DNA of 64,000 nt, taken from Agromyces aureus (GTDB lineage: Bacteria; Actinomycetota; Actinomycetes; Actinomycetales; Microbacteriaceae). The translations under genes were made by a program, and so were the position numbers. Positions within the stretch are counted from its first letter, which is position 1, and every line of letters starts with the position of its first letter. Where the stretch lies: contig NZ_CP013979.1 in assembly GCF_001660485.1 (NCBI RefSeq), positions 1,798,001 through 1,862,000 on the forward strand, written 5' to 3'. A model generated the notes under the pieces. That model saw only the letters and a list, made by a program, of their open reading frames with translations, ran no database searches and had not been told where the DNA came from. Below are positions 24,021 to 40,920 of this stretch, piece by piece.

Positions 24021-24390
24021 GGGGATGATCGGTTTCGACATCGTCTGTGTACCCACGAGAAGCGGGCCGAGGATCCAGGGTTATCTCGTAAACGATCTCT
24101 GGAAAACAATAACTGCCAATAAGACGCAGTCTGACTTCGCCCTCGCTGCTTAAGCGAGTCCGATAGTCCGTCAGCCCGGGTTCGTTTCCGCCCCGGTCGC
24201 TGGCGTCATCTAGGAAACTCGCTGTGCGTCGTCGCCTGAGCGCCGTACGGGACTTTCTTCAGGCTGGGCCTGTCGACTTAGGTGCCTGTGGCAAAGGTCG
24301 GGGCCGAGCAGAACGCTTGCACAGGATGCGCCCGGAGAAGGCGTGGAAACTCAGCGATGGACGGGGGTTCAATTCCCCCCATCTCCACCA
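24021..24390 (+). ncRNA. ssrA: Transfer-messenger RNA
   Basis: One-piece tmRNA. The 5' end GGGGATGATCGGTTTCGAC and 3' end GGGGTTCAATTCCCCCCATC plus CTCCACCA form the tRNA-like domain, with acceptor pairing GGGGATG to CATCTCC and an encoded CCA. The tag reading frame runs from GCC at 24115 to TAA at 24151-24153 and encodes ANKTQSDFALAA, a protease tag ending in the usual ALAA. It rescues stalled ribosomes with SmpB, encoded 5.5 kb upstream. Pseudoknot-forming G/C blocks follow the tag. Confidence 0.97.
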
Positions 24391-30553: not shown

Positions 30554-30626
30554 GCACCTCTAGCTCAATCGGCAGAGCAACTGACTCTTAATCAGTGGGT
30601 TCTGGGTTCAAGTCCCAGGGGGTGCA
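30554..30626 (+). tRNA. tRNA-Lys (anticodon CTT)
   Basis: Acceptor stem GCACCTC/GGGGTGC, anticodon arm ACTGA-CTCTTAA-TCAGT giving CTT, T arm CTGGG-TTCAAGT-CCCAG, and CCA encoded at 30627-30629. The gene remains intact because the element supplies the identical last 56 bases. It is the integration target of the adjacent element. Confidence 0.97.
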
Positions 30627-30627
30627 C
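30572..30627 (+). repeat. attL, 56-bp att core within tRNA-Lys
   Basis: Identical over 56 bases to 40865-40920. It covers part of the D arm, the anticodon arm, variable and T arms and the acceptor 3' strand; the bases just outside differ on both sides. Confidence 0.96.
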
Positions 30628-30633
30628 CACGGA

Positions 30634-30674
30634 GAAACCCCCGGCTATTCGCTAAATGCGAGGCCGGGGGTTTC
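30634..30674 (+). terminator. tRNA terminator carried by the element
   Basis: Stem GAAACCCCCGGC with its exact complement (12 bp) and a 17-base loop, five bases after the CCA. It lies inside the element, so it replaces the original tRNA terminator now displaced to 40925. Confidence 0.85.
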
Positions 30675-30690
30675 TTGCGTTTCGCGTAAC

Positions 30691-30720
30691 GTGCAACGTC
30701 GTGTGCAATCCCCGTGCAAC
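30691..30720. promoter_or_regulatory. Integrase arm-type sites, left
   Basis: Three near-identical heptamers: GTGCAAC at 30691, GTGCAAT at 30703 and GTGCAAC at 30714, all in one orientation just inside attL. The same word occurs twice just inside attR. Repeats flanking the core at both ends are what a lambda-type integrase uses as arm sites. Confidence 0.55.
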
Positions 30721-30741
30721 ACGGGCGTGTCTCAGCGTGTC

Positions 30742-31005
30742 CTAGTTGCTGTGGCGTCGGCGACTGCGCGGCGCAGCGAACGGGTCCACCGGCCGCGTGA
30801 GGTGGGCTCGAACCTCGGACAGGTAGAAGCGCAGCGGAGCTCGTGGGCCAGTGCTGAGCCTGAAACTCGGGATCTCGCCTCTCTGCGCGTAAGCCCGCAC
30901 CGTGTACTCCGAGACGCCAAGGTACTCGGCCATCGTTTTCGCGTCGACTGGCTTCTCCTCGAGCCCGGAATCGACAGGGGGAAACGGTCCAGAGATTCTC
31001 ATCAT
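30742..31005 (-). CDS. Excisionase-like HTH protein (left end)
   Basis: About 87 aa from ATG 31005; a TTG at 31026 is less likely. VDAKTMAEYLGVSEYTVRAY, then QRGEIPSFRLSTGPRAPLRF, is the winged HTH of the excisionase/AlpA family. It sits 115 bases from attL, the usual place for a recombination directionality factor or an early regulator. A palindrome lies between it and the tail-fibre gene. Confidence 0.7.
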   Translation of the reverse strand: MMRISGPFPPVDSGLEEKPVDAKTMAEYLGVSEYTVRAYAQRGEIPSFRLSTGPRAPLRFYLSEVRAHLTRPVDPFAAPRSRRRHSN

Positions 31006-31047
31006 GACCACCACGCTAAGGCACAACCCAAGTTGCTAAACCGAGTT

Positions 31048-31065
31048 CCTAAACCCCAGTTTAGG
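31048..31065. promoter_or_regulatory. Palindrome CCTAAAC-CCCA-GTTTAGG
   Basis: Perfect 7-bp arms around CCCA, with a third CTAAAC copy at 31037-31042. It may be the operator of the excisionase-like gene. Followed rightward by GATTGTTTTT, it could also act as a rightward terminator. Confidence 0.5.
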
Positions 31066-31107
31066 GATTGTTTTTGCGTCGAACTTGCAGCCAAAATCAG
31101 CCCATGG

Positions 31108-31821
31108 TCATACCCCCAGTAGGGTCTTGATCGCCGCCACATCGTTTGTCAGCGACTGTACGACCGGTAGCAAGGCCAATGACAGTCGGTCGTACTTGAT
31201 GCCGAACGGGAGCCCGTCCGCGTCGTAGTAGACCAGCCAATGCAGGCCAAGAGCGTGAACCTCTTCCGCGATGAGACCAATCTCCTGGTCTGCATCCTCG
31301 CCGAGCTCTTCCACCGCGTTGATGTACCTGAACGTCACCACTTGCAACGCTTGTAGCGTCGCAGGATCCAACGTGGCCGGCGCAATGTCCTGCTTGAACC
31401 GCTGACTCGAGGGGACGTGTCCGATGCGCCCACCGTCGCTTGTACTGCCGTATGTAGCAAAGTACGCCGACGTCAGGATCGTGACTGGCACGTTCGGCAT
31501 CCGCACTTCACCCGCAACTGTCAGGCTGCCTGCTGAGCTGATCGCGCCAGACGCCGTAACCGTGGACGGTGCGATTGCCCCTGGTGATGCAACCTTCGCG
31601 TCAATCTCAGCCTTGGTGTAGAAGTCGTCCATCGCGGACTCCACGAGTTCTTCGACCGTCTCCGTCAGTTCGGCAAGCTTTGCCTGCACCTGAGCCACCA
31701 GGGATGCGTTCTGCGTACCAGACGGGATCTCCAACTCACGCAGACGACGCTTGATCTCGTTGATCTGCTGAACCAGACCATCCAGACCGTCACCACTGCC
31801 ACGCTGATATCCACCAGACAT
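31108..31821 (-). CDS. Phage tail fibre/spike with S74 self-cleaving chaperone domain
   Basis: 237 aa from ATG 31821; the longer ORF start is inside the tape-measure gene. Residues 15-75 form a coiled coil (LVQQINEIKRRLRELE, ELTETVEELVESAMDD). A short FYTKAEIDAKV fibre segment follows. The C-terminal peptidase S74 domain (about 145-237) has the catalytic serine context SSQRFKQDI and the conserved GLIAEEVHALGL. S74 domains trimerise the fibre and cut themselves off. Two bases after the tape-measure stop. Confidence 0.87.
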   Translation of the reverse strand: MSGGYQRGSGDGLDGLVQQINEIKRRLRELEIPSGTQNASLVAQVQAKLAELTETVEELVESAMDDFYTKAEIDAKVASPGAIAPSTVTASGAISSAGSLTVAGEVRMPNVPVTILTSAYFATYGSTSDGGRIGHVPSSQRFKQDIAPATLDPATLQALQVVTFRYINAVEELGEDADQEIGLIAEEVHALGLHWLVYYDADGLPFGIKYDRLSLALLPVVQSLTNDVAAIKTLLGV

Positions 31822-31823
31822 GA

Positions 31824-34610
31824 TCAGCCCCCAATCTTGCGAGCGAACTCGCGCATCATGATCGTGTTGACCGCGCGGGGGTCCATCTCGCGAATAGGCG
31901 ACGCGTTGTAGCTGAAGTGCTGGATCGTGTCGCCGGCAGGCATCTGACCACCCAGTCGGCCGTAAGCCTCGAGTGCGTAGCCACGGTTCTCTGCTTCTTT
32001 CCCCGGCCGGCCAGAGATGAACGCTTCCCAACCAACCTCAGGTTCAGCGAACTTGTACAACGCACCCTGACGGCCCGAATAGAAGCCCTCACCGAAGCCA
32101 CCACTCGAATACGAGTACATGCCACCGTCTGCGTTCGCGTACGCGGCACCCACCTGACCGGCCGGCGCACCAGACGCAATCCGCTGCTCCTGCACATACA
32201 GGTACACCTCCTTCGAGTTCGGAATCTCCGCCAACTTCCGTGCGAACGCCGTCGCTGCATCCATCGCCGCCTGAGCGTGAAGGTTGACCTGAGTGCTGAC
32301 GTCACCGGGAATCAGACCCAACTGATCCGCGTACGCACCCGCCTGCTCCTTGGACATACCCGCAGCCTCACCGGCCGCAACAATCGCGTCACGACCCGCC
32401 TGAATCACCGGGATCGCATCAGACTGCACACCAGTCTGTTCGACTGTCGCAGCCGCAGCTTTCTTGTACGACTCCGCGATAGCGTCAAGAGCGGCCTGGT
32501 TCTCACGACCGGCCTCAGTCGTAATGTCCAAAGCCTGCCCCTGGGCGACCGCAGCGTCAGCGGCAGCGTGCGCCGCTTCCTCGGATGCCCCATTCGCGAT
32601 CGCCGTGTCATAAACGCTCTGCTTGAACTTGTCCAGCACCTCCGTCGCATCATCAAGCGACGCCTCAACCTGACGGTTCGCGTCGTTCAACGACAACTGC
32701 GTGTCACCGAGACCCTGCAACGCCGTGATGAAGTCATCCACCGACTGCTGAGCGGTCGCTGTCACACTCGTGAACTCCTCCAACGCGGACGTCTGCCCCT
32801 CAGTCGCAGCAGTACCGTCGTCGACCGCGGACTCATGCTGACGTGCCAGACGGATGGCCTCCTCGAGCGACGCCGACTCACCCTTCACACCGTTCACGAC
32901 GGAATCGATAGCGTCAGCCCACTCGCCCTCCTTCAGACCCAGCTTCTCGCGAACCGCGACCGCATCCTCATCGGTACGATTCCGCAGCTTCGTCACCGCA
33001 GCGACCTGCTCCAACGCCTCCACGCTGCCCATCGTCGCGTCAGCCACAGTTGACACCGACAAGCCCAACTTCTCCGCAGCATCCGCAGCCGAATCAAACT
33101 GCACCGCATCAATCTCAAGACCCAGCAAGTTCAGCGACTGCTTCGCCTGCAGGTTCGCCACCACCATGTCACGGGTAGCTGCCGTCGTACGCTGCGACCC
33201 CTCCTCAAGCGTGTCCGCATACGCCTCAGCAGAAGCGCGAGCCTCCGCCTGCTGCGACGCCAACTGCGACACAACCAGCGCCATTCCAGTGATCGCGATA
33301 GCTGCGCCGGCAACACCCTTCGCAACCTTGCCACCCGAGATATTCAGCGATTCAAGGGATGCCTTGTACGCCGCGGCCTTCGGAACAGCGAGCAAAGCAG
33401 CGCCACCCATCAGGCCAACAGCGGCAGTCACACCACCAATCGCAAGAGCCGTATTCTGCACCGGCTCAGGAGCATCAGCAAACGCAGCCACCACATCCGT
33501 AGCACCCTGCACAAGACCCCTCAGAGGCCCGTCAGCGCCCTCACCAACACCGATGAGAGCCGTCTCCATCGCGCCGCCAAACGCCTCCACATCGCCAGCC
33601 AGGTTGTCGAGACGTAGAGCAGCGGTCTCAGCCGCATATCCCTGGTCATCAACCGCTGTGATCCAGTCCTGAATGCCTTCCGCGCCTTCGTCGTAGAGCA
33701 CGGTCGCAGCACGAATCGCATCCGCCCCGAAGATTGTCGACAACGCCGCCTGACGCTGCTGAGTCGACAAACCCGACAGCCCGTCCTGCAACCTGCCGGC
33801 GAACTCAGCCAGCCCGATGAAGTTGCCCTGTGCGTCGTACGCCGAGATACCCAGATCCGCCATCAGCTTCTCAGCCTCAGCACTCCGCGGATTCAACGAC
33901 GACAGAGCCGTCTTCAAAGACGTACCCGCATCCGAACCCTTCAACCCAGCCTGAGCGAACGCAGCCAGAGCACCCGTCGTCTCCTCAACCGTCAAACCCG
34001 TAGCCGAAGCCACCTGACCCGACTGTGCGAGAGCCGCAGAGAGGTCCGAGACCTCGCCGGACGCCTTACCGGCACCAGCCGCGAGAAGGTCAGCAATATG
34101 CTCAGTCTCGGAACCCTCAAGGTTGAACTGTGCCAACGTGGTTGCCGCGATCTCAGCCGCCTGAGCAACCTCAAGGCCACCAGCAGCAGCAAGATCCAGC
34201 GCACCGCTCAGAGCACCATCCAGGATCTCCGCCGTAGACAGGCCCGCCTTCGAGAGCTCCTCGATAGCAGCCGACGACTCGGTAGCCGAGAAGACCGTTG
34301 TACGACCAGCCTCGAGCGCCGCATCCCGCAGCAGATCCATGTTCGACGCAGACTCGTGCGTCGCCGCCTGCACATTCGACATCGCCTTGTCGAAGTCCGC
34401 GAACTTCGCCACAGCGAGCCCCACACCCGCAGCAGCAAACGCACCGACTGCCAACGCTCCCTTGCCGATGCCATCAAATGCCTGCTGCTGTGCGGCCAAC
34501 TTCCCGGCCGCGGTATCCAGCTTCTGGGTCGCGACAGCAGCGTCGGTCATGCCCTTCACGTAGCCACTCACGACCGCATCGAGAGTCACCTTCGTATTGC
34601 GTTCACCCAT
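31824..34610 (-). CDS. Phage tail tape-measure protein (TP901 type)
   Basis: 928 aa, intact. TP901 core at about residues 75-330, with KFADFDKAMSNVQAATHES, AAIEELSKAGLSTAEIL and TALSSLNPRSAEAEKLM. Hydrophobic stretches lie at about 48-70, 400-425 and 440-465, and long helical coiled-coil regions fill the rest. It sets tail length and enters the host membrane in siphophages. A strong AGGAGG precedes the ATG and overlaps the end of the upstream small gene. No tube or capsid gene accompanies it. Confidence 0.92.
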   Translation of the reverse strand: MGERNTKVTLDAVVSGYVKGMTDAAVATQKLDTAAGKLAAQQQAFDGIGKGALAVGAFAAAGVGLAVAKFADFDKAMSNVQAATHESASNMDLLRDAALEAGRTTVFSATESSAAIEELSKAGLSTAEILDGALSGALDLAAAGGLEVAQAAEIAATTLAQFNLEGSETEHIADLLAAGAGKASGEVSDLSAALAQSGQVASATGLTVEETTGALAAFAQAGLKGSDAGTSLKTALSSLNPRSAEAEKLMADLGISAYDAQGNFIGLAEFAGRLQDGLSGLSTQQRQAALSTIFGADAIRAATVLYDEGAEGIQDWITAVDDQGYAAETAALRLDNLAGDVEAFGGAMETALIGVGEGADGPLRGLVQGATDVVAAFADAPEPVQNTALAIGGVTAAVGLMGGAALLAVPKAAAYKASLESLNISGGKVAKGVAGAAIAITGMALVVSQLASQQAEARASAEAYADTLEEGSQRTTAATRDMVVANLQAKQSLNLLGLEIDAVQFDSAADAAEKLGLSVSTVADATMGSVEALEQVAAVTKLRNRTDEDAVAVREKLGLKEGEWADAIDSVVNGVKGESASLEEAIRLARQHESAVDDGTAATEGQTSALEEFTSVTATAQQSVDDFITALQGLGDTQLSLNDANRQVEASLDDATEVLDKFKQSVYDTAIANGASEEAAHAAADAAVAQGQALDITTEAGRENQAALDAIAESYKKAAAATVEQTGVQSDAIPVIQAGRDAIVAAGEAAGMSKEQAGAYADQLGLIPGDVSTQVNLHAQAAMDAATAFARKLAEIPNSKEVYLYVQEQRIASGAPAGQVGAAYANADGGMYSYSSGGFGEGFYSGRQGALYKFAEPEVGWEAFISGRPGKEAENRGYALEAYGRLGGQMPAGDTIQHFSYNASPIREMDPRAVNTIMMREFARKIGG

Positions 34611-34622
34611 TTAGTCACCTCC

Positions 34623-34904
34623 TCAGATCATCGACGGGTCGAAAGGCGCATCGCCCACAACCTCGCCCTCATCAAGCTCCGCGTCGTCGTAACGACGAAC
34701 CTCGGAATCCAAACGCTCCATCTCCGCAATCAGCCGGCCCAACGCATGCGCCGGAACCACGCCCGCATCAATCACCGACGCAATATGCAGACGGGCACGC
34801 ACCAGAAACTCACGACGCCCCATCTCCGCGGCCTCCACCAACGACCCCGGAACGTCCGGCACCACAGGCTCATCGGCCTCCACAGCCCTCAAAACACGAC
34901 CCAT
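34623..34904 (-). CDS. Small phage protein, possibly terminase small subunit
   Basis: 93 aa from ATG 34904 with GAGGAGG upstream. The core LVRARLHIASVIDAGVVPAH, then LGRLIAEMERLDSEVRR, is the helical pattern of small TerS-like proteins in actinophages. The position between HNH endonuclease and structural genes also fits. An alternative is a tail-assembly chaperone, because it directly precedes the tape measure by 12 bases. No slippery sequence for a chaperone frameshift is obvious. Confidence 0.45.
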   Translation of the reverse strand: MGRVLRAVEADEPVVPDVPGSLVEAAEMGRREFLVRARLHIASVIDAGVVPAHALGRLIAEMERLDSEVRRYDDAELDEGEVVGDAPFDPSMI

Positions 34905-34905
34905 G

Positions 34906-35271
34906 TCAGGCCTCCTCGAATCTTTTTTTCAGCCGGGGGGAGATGCCGCCTAGCCCCAGAGGTCCTGAGCACAGGTCGAGGGGTGACCCGCCCCTGGGGT
35001 CACTCGAGCGAGTGAGAGCGTCGGATGATCGGTGCCACGATGCGGGCTCGCTTCTTCGAGTTGCAGTCGCTTGTCGGTGCGCTGCTTTGATGTTGTGCAG
35101 CGCGTCTTCACCGCCCTTGGCTAGGGGAATGACGTGATCGATGACGAAGGATCGCGGGTCGGTGTGCGGCAGCGTGTAGTCCACTGGTTCACCACAGATG
35201 TGGCAGGCCGCACGTGTGCGTCTGATGCGGTCACGCCATCGCTGCGCTTGGGCACGGTTGCGGGCGGTCAT
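34906..35271 (-). CDS. HNH endonuclease
   Basis: 121 aa. Zinc pair CHICGEP, then the HNH core FVIDHVIPLAKGGEDALHNI with the final His in KAAHR. The usual second cysteine after that His is replaced (HRQATATRR), so only one clear CxxC is present. HNH proteins next to TerS/TerL are needed for cos cleavage in several phages. ATGA overlap with the upstream gene, one base before the next. C-terminal 40 residues are not conserved-looking. Confidence 0.85.
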   Translation of the reverse strand: MTARNRAQAQRWRDRIRRTRAACHICGEPVDYTLPHTDPRSFVIDHVIPLAKGGEDALHNIKAAHRQATATRRSEPASWHRSSDALTRSSDPRGGSPLDLCSGPLGLGGISPRLKKRFEEA

Positions 35272-36083
35272 CGGGCATTCATCCGCACGTACTCGGCAGC
35301 GCGTGCCTCCTGCACGTGGTCGCGCTGTGCTTCGCGGTGGCTTGCTGACTGTGCCGAGTACGCCTGCTCACGTCGCGCTTCAACCTCGGTGGGGGTGGCG
35401 AGGCTGATGCGGTAGCCGGCCGTCGCGATATCCCAGTGGTCGGCACGCTTGCTGCCACGGAACGCATCGAGGATCTCGGTTGCGGTGGCGTCGCCGGCAT
35501 CGACGTTCTGCAGGAGTGCGCCGACCGCTGTTCCTTCTGCCCGTCCCACGAGGTACAGGAGGGTGCCGATGGCTTCGTGCAGGTCGTGGAGGATCTTGTG
35601 TGCTTCGCGGGCGTCGAGGTTTGCCCTGGCGATGTCGAGACCCATGCTGCTGACTCGAGGGTCGTCAAGGCCTGTGATGCCGTGTGCGGTGAGGATTGCG
35701 TGTGCTTCGGTGAACCGTTCGCCGGTGCTGTCGTAGGCCGGCTGGTATGCGGCTACGAGCTCGTCGATGTTGTCGCGTACGGTCTCGGAAAGCCTGTCGA
35801 TGCCGACGTTCGCAATGCCGCTCTGCGACACGATCGGCAGAAGTGCGCTGCGAACGGTCGCGCGCAGTACTTCCTTGTCGTCGAGGGGGTTCTTGCCGTT
35901 GCTGATCGCGTCGTATGTGGCTTCGGCAACGGACGGGCCGGTGAGGTCGAGGTTGTTCGCCGCTTCGATGAGTGCGAGTTTCTTCGTGATGTCGGCTGCC
36001 AGGACGTCCGGCAGTTCGACTGCGTACTGATCGGCGGTGGTGAGGTACTTGCGGATGGTCGGTGCGAAGGATCGGTAAGACAT
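35268..36083 (-). CDS. Unknown phage-element protein, 271 aa
   Basis: From ATG 36083 with AGGAGA eight bases upstream; the longer frame start is rejected. Almost entirely helical, soluble, no signal or membrane segment. Recognisable landmarks are SYRSFAPTIRKYLTTADQ at the start and a C-terminus rich in Arg/Gln/Glu (ARREQAYSAQSASHREAQRD), likely a coiled coil. I do not recognise the family. It lies in the coupled run leading into HNH. Confidence 0.75.
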   Translation of the reverse strand: MSYRSFAPTIRKYLTTADQYAVELPDVLAADITKKLALIEAANNLDLTGPSVAEATYDAISNGKNPLDDKEVLRATVRSALLPIVSQSGIANVGIDRLSETVRDNIDELVAAYQPAYDSTGERFTEAHAILTAHGITGLDDPRVSSMGLDIARANLDAREAHKILHDLHEAIGTLLYLVGRAEGTAVGALLQNVDAGDATATEILDAFRGSKRADHWDIATAGYRISLATPTEVEARREQAYSAQSASHREAQRDHVQEARAAEYVRMNAR

Positions 36084-36085
36084 GG

Positions 36086-36217
36086 TTAGTTCTCCTGTTC
36101 GGCAGTGGGGGTCGCGGGGCGGGTCGTGAATATCCCTGAGGCGGGTTCGTCGTGCTCGGTCTGGGCTTCTCCCCAGAGGTTGCGGATGAACTCCCGCATC
36201 TCGTCGGCGTCGGTCAT
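36086..36217 (-). CDS. Small acidic protein, 43 aa
   Basis: Starts MTDADEMREFIRNLWGEAQ and stops at 36086-36088, two bases before the next start. Its ATG overlaps the preceding stop (ATGA at 36214-36217). Short acidic proteins with an MREF-IRNL helix are common in actinophage structural regions. Function unknown. Confidence 0.6.
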   Translation of the reverse strand: MTDADEMREFIRNLWGEAQTEHDEPASGIFTTRPATPTAEQEN

Positions 36218-36441
36218 GAGGTTCTGCTTTCTGGGACGTAGAACGTGTAGCCGTTCGCTCGTTGGTCACGGTTCACGGGGGTATAGAGGCGGCATCCTGC
36301 GGCGCGCCATTGGCGTCGGTTGCTGGGCACGTATTCGTGGTCGTGTTCTTCTCCGCAGAGCGGGCATCGGATGATTGCTCGCCCGTATTGGGTGCGAAGG
36401 AACTCGGCTTCAGGGGTGTCGGTGGGGGGACGTCTCCTCAT
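36214..36441 (-). CDS. Small protein with one zinc-finger-like CxxC
   Basis: 75 aa from ATG 36441 (GGAGG seven bases upstream). CPLCGEEHDHEY gives a Cys pair plus His residues, then an Arg-rich half ending NGYTFYVPES. Possibly a metal-binding DNA- or RNA-associated protein; unknown. Confidence 0.6.
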   Translation of the reverse strand: MRRRPPTDTPEAEFLRTQYGRAIIRCPLCGEEHDHEYVPSNRRQWRAAGCRLYTPVNRDQRANGYTFYVPESRTS

Positions 36442-36593
36442 GAGCACGCCTCCCGAAGGACGGGGCAGGTGTCGTCGTGTCGGAGCACCTTGGGCCAGTA
36501 GAAGCCAGGTGTTATCTCGACCATGCGGATACGGCCGGTGCAGTCATCGCACGTTCCCCAACCGCCTTCGAGGCCGATGTAGTCGATAGCCAT
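36438..36593 (-). CDS. Small zinc-ribbon-like protein, 51 aa
   Basis: From ATG 36593 with AAGGAG six bases upstream. TCDDCTGRIR and HDDTCPVLREAC provide four or five cysteines and a histidine in a ribbon-like spacing. Overlaps both neighbours by a few bases. Function unknown. Confidence 0.6.
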   Translation of the reverse strand: MAIDYIGLEGGWGTCDDCTGRIRMVEITPGFYWPKVLRHDDTCPVLREACS

Positions 36594-36823
36594 CAGTTGC
36601 TCCTTGTCATGAGTTCGCCAGCCCACGTGCCGCCTTCGGGGCGACCTACACGCCGGTAAGTGAGGCACTGCGCCATGAGTGGGCACAGGTTGCAGGTCTC
36701 CCGCATTTCGATGCGGTCACCTGGCGATGGGTTGTCATCCGTATAGCGGTCTTGGCCCAGACACGCGGGAGGTGACTTCTCCATCGCGGACTGAAGCACC
36801 CTGAACTCGAGCGCGCCCCTCAC
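36593..36823 (-). CDS. WhiB-like iron-sulphur regulator
   Basis: 76 aa from GTG 36823, which overlaps the ATPase stop as GTGA and has AGAAGG seven bases upstream. Four cysteines in WhiB order: PACLGQD, ETCNLCPL, AQC. The tail motif GTWAGE corresponds to the family's G-I/V-W-G-G turn but is degenerate. WhiB proteins carry a 4Fe-4S cluster and bind sigma factor; phage copies such as mycobacteriophage TM4 WhiB interfere with host WhiB function. Likely a transcription modifier of the element. Confidence 0.8.
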   Translation of the reverse strand: MRGALEFRVLQSAMEKSPPACLGQDRYTDDNPSPGDRIEMRETCNLCPLMAQCLTYRRVGRPEGGTWAGELMTRSN

Positions 36824-37947
36824 GAGGTGACCTTCTCGGTGTGCTCCTTGCTCCCGTACTCCCACTGTGAGGAGCGGGGAGCAGTGTTGTATTGGTGCTC
36901 TGGGAGCGCTCCGGGAGCGGTATATGAGTGCTCCTCTGCTCCTGACACATAGGGTTCAGGAGCGGGGAGCACGATCGTTGGGGAGCCCAGTCGACGCCAT
37001 TCCTTCAATGTGTCGAGCGCCCGTGAGGAACCCCAGTTGAGCCGTTCCTTGATGTCTCGCTGAGACTTCGGCGGGGGAGTGAGCTCCGACAGCGTCTGAA
37101 TGTCGGCTGCCGAAACGATGTCCTGCTTCGGTGCCGCTTCACCTTCCTTCGGAGGGATGAAGTTCCATGCGAGATCCCCGTCCGTCTGCGTCCAGAGCTT
37201 GAACGTGGCTGCAAGCGGCTCGCGATCATCACTCGGGCAGGACGCCCTCAGGCCGCCGTGACGGTCCTTGTTGAGGGTCACATGGGCCCGCCCACCGATG
37301 CCCGGTTTGAACGGCTCAGCGATGCTCACGCGCAACGAGGTGCCACCGATCGCCCGCTTCTTCGCCGTCGTCCCCGTGGCACCGAACGACTGAGCGTCAC
37401 GATTCTTGGGGAGGTGGTCGATGATGATCACCGCTGCGCCAGACTTGACTAGCGCCTTGACGACGGTCGTGTGGACCCGCGTGAAGTCATCTGGCGAGTT
37501 CGACGATGCGCCATACATGGGCAGGAGTTCGCCCAGCGAGTCGAGCAAAACGATCGCCGGCTTCCAGTCGAGAGCGTCTGCCACGACGGTTGCCATATGT
37601 TCGGCATCCTCGGGCTGGCAGTAGCGGAACCTGCCCGCGTCACGCAGTACCGCCTCGTCGACACCCATGCTGATGAGACGTGAGATGGTTGCGCCGGCCC
37701 CGTTGTGGTCGAGGTCGATCAGTAGGGCAGAGTTGCCTCGGGCGAGCTCGTCTGCGACGGCGCACTGAGCGAGCAGCGTCTTGCCGGATTCGGGGTCACC
37801 GAATACAAGATTGGACTGTCCTCGGTAGAACAGTCCAATGCCGTCGTCACGCAGTCCGATAGACGGGGCTGGGGGAGTGATGTCGCCTCGGTCGAGGAGT
37901 TCACCGATGTCGGTGTACGCGTCCTGGGTGTAGTTCGAACCGTTCAT
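36820..37947 (-). CDS. RecA-fold ATPase (AAA_25/RepA type)
   Basis: 375 aa from ATG 37947. Walker A GDPESGKT at about residue 49, Walker B AIVLLDSLGEL at about 130, and VIIIDHLPKNRD beyond it, as in phage/plasmid RepA-like helicases. The C-terminal 100 residues hold a possible winged helix (SQRDIKERLNWGSSRALDTL) and a Tyr/Ser-rich tail. Probable replication initiator or helicase loader of the element. Four-base overlaps at both ends. Confidence 0.82.
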   Translation of the reverse strand: MNGSNYTQDAYTDIGELLDRGDITPPAPSIGLRDDGIGLFYRGQSNLVFGDPESGKTLLAQCAVADELARGNSALLIDLDHNGAGATISRLISMGVDEAVLRDAGRFRYCQPEDAEHMATVVADALDWKPAIVLLDSLGELLPMYGASSNSPDDFTRVHTTVVKALVKSGAAVIIIDHLPKNRDAQSFGATGTTAKKRAIGGTSLRVSIAEPFKPGIGGRAHVTLNKDRHGGLRASCPSDDREPLAATFKLWTQTDGDLAWNFIPPKEGEAAPKQDIVSAADIQTLSELTPPPKSQRDIKERLNWGSSRALDTLKEWRRLGSPTIVLPAPEPYVSGAEEHSYTAPGALPEHQYNTAPRSSQWEYGSKEHTEKVTS

Positions 37948-38252
37948 GCGCGGCCCCGATCTTCGATGATGTCGCGTACGCGCTCGTGCACGAACTCTTC
38001 CCAATAGGCCGCAGCACCGGCCCGCATGCGGCGCAGCCTCACGTCTGGCAGTTCCTTGCCGTAGTAGAGGCGTTCGTAGAGACGGTCGCGCTCGGCTGCC
38101 ATTGATTCCTGCCCGTCGTTGAAGCCGACTGAGTAGAAGCCGGCGAGTGCGGGCGTGAGGTCGTGCAGCCCGATTTCTGCTGACACGAGACGCCAGAGAC
38201 AGGCGTCCAATTGCTTCTCGACGGTGTGGCCGACTAGTTCAATGCCGCTCAT
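37944..38252 (-). CDS. Unknown small phage-type protein, 102 aa
   Basis: Landmarks are LTPALAGFYSVGFNDGQESM and YWEEFVHERVRDIIEDRG; helical, acidic, no cysteine motif. Similar small proteins precede RepA-like ATPases in actinobacterial prophages. First gene of the tightly coupled leftward run. Function unknown. Confidence 0.65.
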   Translation of the reverse strand: MSGIELVGHTVEKQLDACLWRLVSAEIGLHDLTPALAGFYSVGFNDGQESMAAERDRLYERLYYGKELPDVRLRRMRAGAAAYWEEFVHERVRDIIEDRGRA

Positions 38253-38324
38253 CGATCACGCCCCTATCTGGTGCGCTGGCAGTAAACTTGAAAGGGCCGC
38301 TATGCCAGCAAGCAACGTGGTTTC

Positions 38325-38356
38325 GCCCGGTCGCCGCTCCTAACGGCGTACCGGGC
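38325..38356. terminator. Hairpin between HTH gene and leftward operon
   Basis: GCCCGG-CGCCG pairs with CGGCG-CCGGGC around a 7-base loop, followed rightward by TTCTTCTTTG. It reads best as a rightward terminator, but rightward coding upstream is not evident; it may attenuate leftward transcription between the HTH gene and the operon. Confidence 0.5.
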
Positions 38357-38369
38357 TTCTTCTTTGTGT

Positions 38370-38534
38370 TCAAGCGACCAAGCTCCGACCTGCGTGCTCC
38401 AGCGAGACCGCGTTGACGCGAATAAGTCGTGGGCCGAAGCGTTCTGCTTCGATGAGGCCGGCCGAGATCATTCGCCGGATGGTGCGCGTAGAAACGTCCC
38501 GCCGTGTGGCCGCTTCCTGGATGGTGATCCACAT
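38370..38534 (-). CDS. Short excisionase-family HTH protein
   Basis: 54 aa, perfect AAGGAG five bases before ATG 38534. ITIQEAATRRDVSTRTIRRM, then a wing ISAGLIEAERFGPRLIRVNA, is the helix-turn-helix of the excisionase/MerR-like group. Likely the early regulator or recombination directionality factor that heads the leftward genes. Confidence 0.78.
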   Translation of the reverse strand: MWITIQEAATRRDVSTRTIRRMISAGLIEAERFGPRLIRVNAVSLEHAGRSLVA

Positions 38535-38620
38535 ATCGACTCCTTAAATGAAGAAAGCGCCAGCACGGGTGCGCTGACGCTGAGACCGCTCCGACCATGG
38601 GAAGCGGGGGCTTAAATGAC

Positions 38621-38649
38621 GAAAGCCCCGACATGTAGTCGGGGCTTTC
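38621..38649. terminator. Perfect 12-bp bidirectional terminator
   Basis: GAAAGCCCCGAC, loop ATGTA, then the exact complement ending in CTTTC. Confidence 0.85.
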
Positions 38650-38690
38650 TGTGTCGAACCGTGAGTTGTTCTGTCACGGTGATGGGGCAA

Positions 38691-38720
38691 AAAAATAACC
38701 CGACTCGTGTGAGTCAGGTT
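38691..38720 (-). terminator. Rho-independent terminator of the 153-aa gene
   Basis: On the minus strand a 9-bp stem (AACC.GACTC type, one mismatch) with loop ACAC is followed by TTATTTTTTT, the classic form, and lies 270 bases after the stop of the leftward gene ending at 38989. Confidence 0.85.
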
Positions 38721-38988
38721 TTAGGCACGCAAAATCGGTGTGATCCATTTGACCATGGCCGGTCATTCTGAAGGGTGCCGACACGCCGTTAAATGCGAAA
38801 TCCCTAGGAGACAGAGTCCTAGGGAGCAAAGACGAAACTATCAGCGCGAGAACGAATTGCCAAAGCGACACGCCGGGGGAATGACAAAGCCGATGGCGAC
38901 CTGCTTTTGTGCAGGCGTCATCGGCTTGATCAATAAACTAACTGAGTTTCGAGGATATGTCCAGTTGCGTCCGGGTGTGTCGCGAAGT

Positions 38989-39450
38989 TCAGCCGACCAG
39001 CTCGAGCACGACGTAGCGGAATGGCTTCGGGAAGGTGTCGGCTACTGAACCCATCACGACCTCAGCGATGAGCCGCCAGATACCGTGCCGCACTCGATGG
39101 CGATCGTGATCCATGTCATCCCGCCATGACTTGCCCTGGGGGTCGCCATTCCTCCAAACGGCATAGCCGGCGTTCTGGTTGTTGGCGCGCTCAACTGCCC
39201 ACGGTTCCGTCTCGCTGATCACGTCGCCTTTGAAGTGGTCGACGATATAGAACAGACCGGACTCGCTGTGCGCCCACTGGTTCGGCAGCACCACGACAGT
39301 CTTGCCTTCGCGTTCGAGTTGTCTGATCGTCTCGGCTTCGGACTGTCGCGCCCTGGCCTGAAGGTCGAGCGCCTCGACTACCACTGCGGTCAAGTCAGTG
39401 TGCGCCCCGATACCCGAGGCGTTTGCGTCGGTACCCTTGATCTTGTTCAC
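38989..39450 (-). CDS. Unknown element protein, 153 aa
   Basis: From GTG 39450, set by AAAGGAG six bases upstream. Contains a basic/Gln-rich helix (LDLQARARQSEAETIRQLER) and a charged region PWAVERANNQNAGYAVWRNG, then HDRHRVRHGIWRLIAEVV. No signal or membrane segment. It lies between integrase and the origin-like region, in its own unit with a terminator; lysogeny maintenance or superinfection immunity would fit but is only inferred from position. Confidence 0.7.
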   Translation of the reverse strand: MNKIKGTDANASGIGAHTDLTAVVVEALDLQARARQSEAETIRQLEREGKTVVVLPNQWAHSESGLFYIVDHFKGDVISETEPWAVERANNQNAGYAVWRNGDPQGKSWRDDMDHDRHRVRHGIWRLIAEVVMGSVADTFPKPFRYVVLELVG

Positions 39451-39532
39451 GATTCGCTCCTTTGTGTGATTGTGAACCATGCCCCCGGCCTGTTCCAGCA
39501 GGTGCGGGGGTCCTTATCGCGACCCGGATGGG

Positions 39533-40717
39533 TTACGTTCGCGTCGGAACCGGCATGCGTTCCGCAATCTCCGCCAGACGGTCTGCGGCGGCATGTTGAT
39601 ACGCCATAGCCGCGACGGTGGTCGAATGACCGAGAAACTTCATCGTTTCGGCCAGAGTCGCACCCGACTGTGCGTGTAGTGTGCCGGCGAACCGTCGCAG
39701 GTCGTGCTCTCGAACGACGCCCCGAATGCTGAGAAGGTCGCGGACGCGATTCCATTCTTTGTAGAACACCGAGTTGTCTACGAATTCGGAGTGTCCGTGC
39801 GGTTGGAACAGCAAGCTCTCGGGGAAGCGGCCCGCGAAATGACTCAGGTGTGCTTCAACTGCGGGCGTGAGTGCTGAGGGTAGGACAACCGCGCGCATGC
39901 CCTCTTCTGATTTCGGGGAGCCGACTACCCAGCCCTCGCCGGTTATTCGCTGTGCTTGGCGGCTCACTTCCACGGTGGTTACGCCATCACGGATGGTGAT
40001 GTCCATCCGGCGAAGTGCCCGCCACTCGGACATGCGAAGACCGCCGTAGGCTGCGAGCAGGATCGCGAGCTCGAACCGGTCGTCGATGAAGTCAAGTATC
40101 GAACCCAGTTCACCCAACGTTGGCGGCCGGTACGTCTGCTTCATGCCGGCGCTTGTCTTCGTCAGATCCGATGGAACGGGATTCGAAGTGACAATGCCCT
40201 CGACGATCGCCGTATTCATGATTGCTCGGAGGAGACGCGCCTCAGCGCCCGCGGCCGTACGCCCCGCCTTCATCCGATCCGCGTGCCAGTTGCGAACTCG
40301 CGCCGCGGTAATTTCCGAAACGCGGTCGTTCTTGAACCTCGAAAGGCCCTTCTCGAGTTGTCGCGCGTACTCGGCGCGAGTCTTCGCAGACAGGAGGCGC
40401 CCCTTAACGACGCGCTGCGCGACCCACGTCGCTGCGTACGATCCGAAGCGCTCATCTACGACCCGGTTTGCCGCCTCGCGTGCCTGCGCCTCCAGGACGG
40501 TGGGGGAGATCCACTGCCCTCGCTCGAGATCAACGCGCACGCCGTCCAACCACTCTCGAGCTTTGTCACTGCCGGTCCTTGGCTTCGCTCGTGTTCCAGG
40601 AGGCGGCGGTGAATCGGTGAACGTGACGGGGGCGTTGTACCGAACCCCGGCGACGACATACGACGCCTGAACACGCCCGGAGGGTAGCTTGCGGATGGCT
40701 CCCCATTGCTTCGGCAT
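39533..40717 (-). CDS. int: Tyrosine-type integrase
   Basis: 394 aa from ATG 40717; a GTG at 40723 is possible. Arm-binding N-terminus, core-binding SAM-like domain (about 95-175), catalytic domain with first Arg in AAYGGLRMSEW, HDLRRF giving H-x-x-R, LGHSTTVAAMAYQH giving the second His and the nucleophile Tyr. Intact, next to attR. It should recombine the 56-bp core in tRNA-Lys. Confidence 0.95.
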   Translation of the reverse strand: MPKQWGAIRKLPSGRVQASYVVAGVRYNAPVTFTDSPPPPGTRAKPRTGSDKAREWLDGVRVDLERGQWISPTVLEAQAREAANRVVDERFGSYAATWVAQRVVKGRLLSAKTRAEYARQLEKGLSRFKNDRVSEITAARVRNWHADRMKAGRTAAGAEARLLRAIMNTAIVEGIVTSNPVPSDLTKTSAGMKQTYRPPTLGELGSILDFIDDRFELAILLAAYGGLRMSEWRALRRMDITIRDGVTTVEVSRQAQRITGEGWVVGSPKSEEGMRAVVLPSALTPAVEAHLSHFAGRFPESLLFQPHGHSEFVDNSVFYKEWNRVRDLLSIRGVVREHDLRRFAGTLHAQSGATLAETMKFLGHSTTVAAMAYQHAAADRLAEIAERMPVPTRT

Positions 40718-40738
40718 GTTCACCTAACCCTCGTTGGC

Positions 40739-40861
40739 GTGCAACGATCGTGCGATCAATCGTGTCCAAATGTGACACCTAGAGTCTCATCAATCAGAGA
40801 GCCAATGTCAATAGTGCCCCGCACTGGCGGGGCCAATCGGTGCGAATTCAAGCCGTGCAAC
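40739..40861. promoter_or_regulatory. Integrase arm-type sites, right
   Basis: GTGCAAC at 40739-40745 and 40855-40861, matching the heptamers inside attL. The second ends three bases before the att core. Confidence 0.5.
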
Positions 40862-40864
40862 ATT

Positions 40865-40920
40865 GCAGAGCAACTGACTCTTAATCAGTGGGTTCTGGGT
40901 TCAAGTCCCAGGGGGTGCAC
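40865..40920 (+). repeat. attR, 56-bp tRNA-Lys 3' fragment
   Basis: Exact copy of 30572-30627. The acceptor 5' strand and most of the D arm are missing, so it is not a functional tRNA. Confidence 0.96.

Follow-up and report, generated by a model that had tools for sequence, protein, structure and literature searches.

Phage-inducible chromosomal island-like elements (PLEs) of Vibrio cholerae offer the comparison from which we start the description of a putative satellite in the Agromyces aureus chromosome, an insertion with genes for a tail tape measure protein (TMP) and a tail fibre that lies in a 64,000-nt stretch of contig NZ_CP013979.1 (this whole stretch being the window). In a 2026 paper, PLEs are described as the first known case of satellites that build chimeric tails: the satellite PLE11 has its own TMP and hub, which enter these tails, and loss of tmp lowered transduction by about 99.9% (PMC12987554). 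The same paper gives satellite-encoded TMPs besides those of PLEs as previously unreported, and displays putative tmp genes in other Vibrio satellites and in capsid-forming phage-inducible chromosomal islands (cf-PICIs) (PMC12987554). The principle of a satellite making chimeric tails with its own TMP is already known from PLE11 (PMC12987554). What would be new here is a further, capsid-less lineage that also bears a fibre; in the open-access literature, with subscription journals mostly outside, we found no description of such elements in this bacterial group.

Classical PICIs and Staphylococcus aureus pathogenicity islands (SaPIs) are small integrated elements with an integrase, a helix-turn-helix (HTH) regulator, a replication-type gene and the small terminase subunit TerS; tail genes are not known to belong to this classical set. 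Judged by these features and not by sequence, the Agromyces element is like them in its integrase, HTH regulator and replication-type gene, with TerS present in 7 of its 15 relatives, and unlike them in that its own TerS is unproven and tail genes are present. Set against PLEs by description and likewise not by sequence, it resembles PLE11, PLE1 and PLE4, satellites whose incomplete set of tail genes likewise includes a TMP, and the TMP and chaperone of another satellite (G445b) are like the PLE set of TMP, tail-assembly chaperone and hub (PMC12987554). It differs in bacterial group and in its siphophage-like TMP, whereas the PLE helper is contractile (PMC12987554), and in having an S74 fibre and no recognised chaperone or hub. 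With cf-PICIs it shares predicted tmp genes in satellites outside Vibrio (PMC12987554); unlike cf-PICIs, which form capsids, it has no capsid gene that we could find. The Streptomyces Mulch and Flayer satellites are also actinobacterial and MiniFlayer has a tail-fibre gene, but they encode terminase, portal and capsid without key replication genes, roughly the reverse of the Agromyces element (PMC10690885).

We consider it likely that this element is a capsid-less, tRNA-integrated satellite building chimeric tails on a helper siphophage with its own TMP and fibre. The insertion, its open tail genes, a wider head-less family and TMPs in several members of that family are observed; helper dependence, chimeric tails and a gain to the satellite are what we infer.

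Insertion site and tail genes

The element ends in a perfect 56-nt direct repeat (30572-30627 and 40865-40920), the left copy lying inside tRNA-Lys(CTT) (30554-30629), in its 3' part. A genome of the same genus (G054) has an empty site, in which both window flanks join at one att copy (85-96% identity); the insertion therefore measures 10,293 bp. Intact att sites had been claimed by an earlier analysis made from the letters alone (the sequence-only reading), and the element is indeed a real insertion. Its GC fraction is 0.58-0.64 vs ~0.71 in the surroundings, and its named genes all read leftwards. The features on which the argument depends are the following.

30572..30627, plus strand: attL, 56-nt direct repeat in the 3' part of tRNA-Lys(CTT)
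31108..31821, minus strand: 237-aa tail fibre bearing an S74 chaperone domain (Peptidase_S74, Pfam, 1e-7)
31824..34610, minus strand: TMP, 928 aa (TIGR01760 1e-60, PhageMin_Tail 2e-48)
34623..34904, minus strand: 93-aa protein with C-terminus DAPFDPSMI (phrog_1459 at E 0.058, sub-threshold)
34906..35271, minus strand: HNH endonuclease, 121 aa (phrog_338 2e-23)
35268..36083, minus strand: 271-aa satellite-specific protein (36% to G177)
36820..37947, minus strand: AAA_25 ATPase, 375 aa, presumed to act in replication (Pfam 27.2 bits vs cut-off 27)
40865..40920, plus strand: attR, 56-nt repeat identical to attL

The 928-aa tape measure, the S74 fibre and the HNH endonuclease named by the sequence-only reading were recovered by these families. 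Its description of abutting HNH, 93-aa, TMP and fibre genes with good ribosome sites and no frameshifts also held: GAGGAGG precedes the 93-aa gene, GGAGGTGACTAA-ATG precedes the TMP gene, and the junction from TMP to fibre reads TGA-TC-ATG. The fibre gene starts at 31821, a longer listed open reading frame (ORF) overlapping the TMP gene, and its PHROG matches are labelled partly tail and partly minor head protein.

Family scans (Pfam, PHROGs) covered 16 window ORFs, with the 43-aa ORF and other-frame ORFs outside the scan. None of the 16 matched a family of terminase large subunit (TerL), portal, protease or capsid, in agreement with the absence claimed earlier; for the tail tube, also said to be absent, the 333-aa form of the 271-aa protein's ORF gave a sub-threshold match to the tail-tube family PF16460 (E 0.077, 13.1 vs 28.4 bits), which was absent for the 271-aa form in PHROGs. 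These ORFs included no broken genes or remnants of TerL, portal or capsid, no capsid-forming module of the cf-PICI kind, and no tail-assembly chaperone family, chaperones being short and diverse; the TMP and fibre genes are open.

The TMP is 57% identical over residues 1-928 to that of a prophage in G054 and 51% over 1-887 to that of a prophage resident in the same genome. In the comparison with G054, the first and second hundred residues are 81 and 78% identical and residues 701-900 are 70-71% identical, vs 20-43% for 401-700. The fibre is 54% identical to the G054 prophage fibre, with 51 of the first 60 residues the same. The two proteins fit a single prophage type, that of G054, and are best conserved at both ends of the TMP and in the N-terminal stretch of the fibre. 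By the tape-measure rule of 1.5 A per residue the tail would be about 140 nm long. The sequence-only reading had proposed that the element imposes its own tail length; since the TMP, at 928 aa, is close in size to that of the resident prophage (930 aa) and that of the nearest relative (899 aa), tail length would be unchanged, and we rejected a change of length as the main role.

The resident prophage lies by tRNA-His at ~2.02-2.05 Mb (L004 plus L005) and has TerL, portal and capsid by PHROGs. Its 930-aa TMP is related to that of the satellite, and it is the first helper candidate.

Head-less relatives at other insertion sites

A search with the 333-aa ORF matched 1 of 60 genus genomes (its own) and 2 of 398 family genomes. 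In the second, G177, a tRNA-Val gene is the site of an element that encodes an integrase, xis, TerS (phrog_1496 5e-20) and a homologue of this ORF. A two-row profile found 2 of 24 genomes of the genus of G177, adding G448, and 7 of 396 genomes of the order (own, G177, G786, G712, G574, G816 and G811); G811 was rejected as a satellite, with no backbone seen, and G574 is the weakest satellite call, its 271-aa gene being without BLAST match. The ATPase profile found 15 of 398 family genomes, including its own. The 14 others divided into seven head-less elements, two with TerL (G345, G369), one with head-like genes (G230), one cut by the contig end (G172) and three of ambiguous type that were kept out of the counts (G015, G102, G164). 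In the order this profile matched 3 of 396 genomes, adding G746 and G747. In IMG/VR, neither the 271-aa family nor the ATPase retrieved a relative.

Fifteen head-less relatives were obtained in total, all of them independently of the TMP: G177, G448, G786, G712, G574, G816, G178, G358, G264, G399, G218, G290, G176, G746 and G747. For G786, G712, G574 and G816 head-less status was assigned without a protein-family search, and the G786 element is truncated by a contig end and lacks its integrase. Exact att repeats, sought in ten of the 15, bound seven (G177, G448, G399, G290, G218, G358, G712); none was seen in the stretch read for G264, G178 and G176. The seven TerS genes were recognised by PHROG (G177, G264, G746) or by similarity (G448, G290, G218, G816). 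The window integrase is 37% identical to those of G177 and G448, and the ATPase 61-64% to G178 and 46% to G448; G178 is the nearest relative by ATPase (fork support 94/90), and the G177 ATPase is very divergent or unrelated.

Satellite integrases adjoin a glutamine-synthetase-like gene in G712 (L063 plus L064, 8028 and 17701) and G747 (L133, 16639). In G712 a 29-nt repeat stands at the end of this gene, which indicates that insertion sites are not tRNA genes only.

The sequence-only reading had suggested looking for the same gene order at other att sites, and the 15 elements supply related orders of this kind; they support its view of a head-less satellite rather than one deleted prophage. It had named close relatives in which a complete packaging, capsid and tail module is present as the finding that would speak for a simple deletion: there was none among the 15, and TerL or head-like genes were seen in more distant ATPase holders. 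Two of these are att-bounded, with TerL by Pfam (G345, L090, 6550-8094; G369, L092, 12533-13996, just under the cut-off) and no capsid called, possibly a TerL-bearing satellite type. In G230 (L088, 10527-19031) a serine recombinase and the related ATPase are followed by genes labelled by eye as HNH-, TerL-, portal-, capsid- and TMP-like, possibly a small prophage or a capsid-forming satellite.

Tape measures of satellites and prophages

An open TMP gene is present in 5 of the 15 relatives. In G264 it encodes 814 aa (phrog_12798 2e-20), in G712 553 aa, 40% identical over 32-347 to TMPs annotated in Microbacterium phages, and in G786 855 aa, with 40% identity to the TMP of prophage G845. The 794-aa product in G399 has no family match; it is 51% identical to G445a and, across a stretch of 54 aa, 46% identical to a protein annotated as a TMP. 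The 828-aa product in G358 is 34-35% identical to G340 and G445b, and its sole PHROG match is endolysin-labelled (0.002). G178 keeps only a 169-aa remnant of a TMP (phrog_9228 2e-9) and also encodes a tail protein of the beta-helix kind, G176 has an S74 fibre 40% identical to that of the window, and the fibre-like genes of G177, G448 and G358 are indicated by weak evidence. Past the G264 TMP (L083, 2797-3537) is a DUF3800 protein with no PADLOC match, possibly satellite cargo.

Searches with the TMP matched 5 genomes in a set of 12 and 16 in a set of 54, and the eight places examined were three satellites and five prophage regions. The added satellites have TMPs of 889 aa (G427; phrog_12798 5e-23), 938 aa (G445b; phrog_1686 4e-4) and 915 aa (G066; no PHROG match, 27% to an annotated TMP), which brings the elements with a TMP to nine, window included. 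In G445b the TMP gene is preceded by genes for a tail-assembly chaperone (phrog_3860 5e-8) and for a 113-aa protein matching phrog_556, minor head (3e-11), and phrog_5, tail completion or neck (1e-7); this is the only head-labelled match in the elements besides TerS, TerL, S74 and weak scaffold-motif matches. The chaperone (L115, 9108-9601) occupies two overlapping frames of 134 and 42 aa that correspond to a single gene of a prophage, as though translated through a frameshift. An IMG/VR scan with the TMP gave 13 loci and the genome-contig scan 2, of which L037 and L006, respectively, were compared.

In TMP trees, G399 grouped with prophage G445a (100/100), G066 with G340 and G148 (100/99), and G264 with G845 (89/95, four rows only), apart from other satellites. 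As satellite and prophage TMPs are intermixed, TMPs were probably captured by satellites several times.

By BLAST we compared 15 elements with 12 prophage regions and phage Footloose: the window element, nine of its 15 relatives, G345, G369, G427, G066 and G445b. Their 256 ORFs matched 52 of 509 ORFs (E 1e-4), and none of nine PHROG-confirmed TerL, portal and capsid proteins or two ORFs in tail-tube position, in a comparison that is not exhaustive because it missed the TerL of G345 and G369, found by Pfam (in G369 below the cut-off).

These data bear on whether the element could be a decayed small prophage, in which two clean deletions removed the head and most tail genes and left HNH, 93-aa, TMP and fibre genes by chance. 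Compatible with decay, the TMP and fibre of the element both correspond to a single prophage, where they lie ~4 kb apart, and in G230 a related ATPase is followed by HNH-, TerL-, portal- and capsid-like genes (labels by eye). Against it, the backbone is common to head-less elements at other sites, these have several different TMPs, the G054 region matches the element only in tail genes and a 22%-identical integrase, and TMP and fibre have no frameshift, so that we hold decay to be quite improbable. TMP and fibre may instead have come in through recombination with prophages and be no more than neutral passengers of the satellite, as the 9 of 15 relatives without a TMP and the mere remnant in G178 would allow. 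The nearest prophage TMP found is just 57% identical, which implies an old gain or an unsampled donor, 928 codons are still open, and TMPs recur in nine elements; passengers are in our view very unlikely.

Proposed tail exchange and the remaining genes

Under the satellite reading, the element's own integrase and ATPase would, judging by their families, excise and replicate it, and a helper siphophage would supply the capsid, packaging motor and tail tube that it lacks. The satellite TMP would take the place of the helper TMP, and the fibre would attach through its N-terminal region to the tip of the helper tail, so that satellite particles carry chimeric tails. The satellite would probably benefit because tails assemble preferentially on its particles, because it evades control directed at tails or because it reaches another receptor, and not through a changed length. 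TMP and fibre might otherwise work outside satellite particles, as decoys that compete to lower helper yield. Tail-directed interference by satellites is reported for Tai (PMC11364771) and Rta (PMC12987554), but Rta is just 80 aa (PMC12987554). The TMP of the element, complete in length and conserved at both ends, and its fibre, which retains the N-terminus and the S74 domain, suit incorporation better, and G445b also has a chaperone. We thus regard decoys as unlikely.

Several points weigh against chimeric tails on a helper. The elements are known from genes alone, from which excision, induction, packaging and a helper are presumed. "Head-less" depends on our gene calls and on partial family and BLAST scans, and the TerL of G345 and G369 and head-like genes of G230, beside related ATPases, make reduction from a phage possible deep in history. 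Nine of the 15 relatives have no TMP, the trees do not establish the direction of the presumed exchanges, and the window has no recognised chaperone or hub, with the 93-aa protein an unproven TerS candidate. The dN of 0.35 and dS of 1.09 for the TMP (ratio 0.32) count in favour, but they and the fibre ratio of 0.37 take in phage branches, with dS near saturation. Finally, exact DNA in common with seven genus prophage regions, outside TMP and fibre, was at most 19 nt (G052), so that a common cos site was not seen by exact words and was rejected as a candidate.

A broader proposal, to which we give slightly less than an even chance, is that an order-wide actinobacterial capsid-less lineage rebuilds helper tails by repeated uptake of local siphophage TMPs, sometimes with fibre or chaperone. 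Maybe with an own scaffold-like protein, head and tail would both be reprogrammed, and the window element would swap ruler and receptor-binding fibre together. A scaffold C-terminus-like motif in small proteins of G399, G358 and G445b (E 0.0058 and 0.013) is a weak clue to head redirection. If true, tail reprogramming would be a general satellite strategy, reaching another bacterial group, capsid-less elements and several different TMPs. The fibre poses the question of whether satellites pick their own receptor, and the paired satellite and prophage TMPs that of why a satellite keeps its own ruler when length is unchanged.

The 271-aa protein may be a candidate for capsid redirection. Hidden capsid homology was rejected for it: PHROGs gave no family for the 271-aa form, and the 333-aa form had no phage match beyond the tail-tube score above. 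The 93-aa protein, called TerS-like in the sequence-only reading, was not confirmed as such, as phrog_1459 matched at E 0.058 only and a search among phage proteins gave no match. The part in redirecting helper packaging that this reading gave to HNH is likewise hypothetical. Endings like its DAPFDPSMI follow TerS in G177, G448 and G290 and occur in 0 of 509 prophage ORFs, the pattern, like MREFIRNLW below, having been picked after the sequences were seen; the window HNH thereby occupies the TerS position of those elements. Of the PICI features, the window has integrase, small HTH regulator and replication gene beside this weak TerS match, and G177 and G448 have all four.

The remaining genes of the element are listed below.

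30742..31026, minus strand: HTH_17 excisionase-like protein (Pfam; 64% to a G057 prophage-region ORF)
36086..36217, minus strand: 43-aa ORF with the MREFIRNLW motif common to G177 and G448
36214..36447, minus strand: 77-aa cysteine-bearing protein (weak zinc-ribbon, Zn_ribbon_IS1595 E 0.027, under cut-off)
36438..36686, minus strand: small cysteine-bearing protein (o82; residues 44-77 47% to G177 and G448)
36593..36865, minus strand: WhiB-like regulator (phrog_9926 4e-5; Pfam score below cut-off)
37944..38252, minus strand: 102-aa satellite backbone protein (homologues adjoin the ATPase in G178 and G218)
38370..38534, minus strand: 54-aa HTH_17 excisionase/regulator (Pfam; 57% to G177)
38989..39480, minus strand: 163-aa protein, function not assigned, without convincing family match
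39533..40723, minus strand: tyrosine integrase, 396 aa (Phage_integrase 1e-11, phrog_1 4e-42)

The intact integrase, the ATPase and the regulators claimed earlier are all among the genes found, the ATPase barely over its Pfam cut-off and the regulators by HTH families and, for the WhiB-like protein, by phrog_9926. This last protein has homologues in G178, G264, G218 and G290. The TerS-labelled phrog_57 fits the 54-aa protein (2.5e-5), probably because of the common HTH. Defence cargo was rejected, with just two weak PADLOC matches in the element (E 0.0025 and 0.0038).

Short repeats with a CGTGCAA core (TGCAATCCCCGTGCAACAC; CGTGCAATACCCGTGCAA) adjoin att sites in the window (30704-30722), in L021 plus L022 (G052, 35429) and in G177 (15206 and 24511), and are perhaps integrase arm sites. 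The window also contains a tmRNA gene (24021-24390) with the tag ANKTQSDFALAA.

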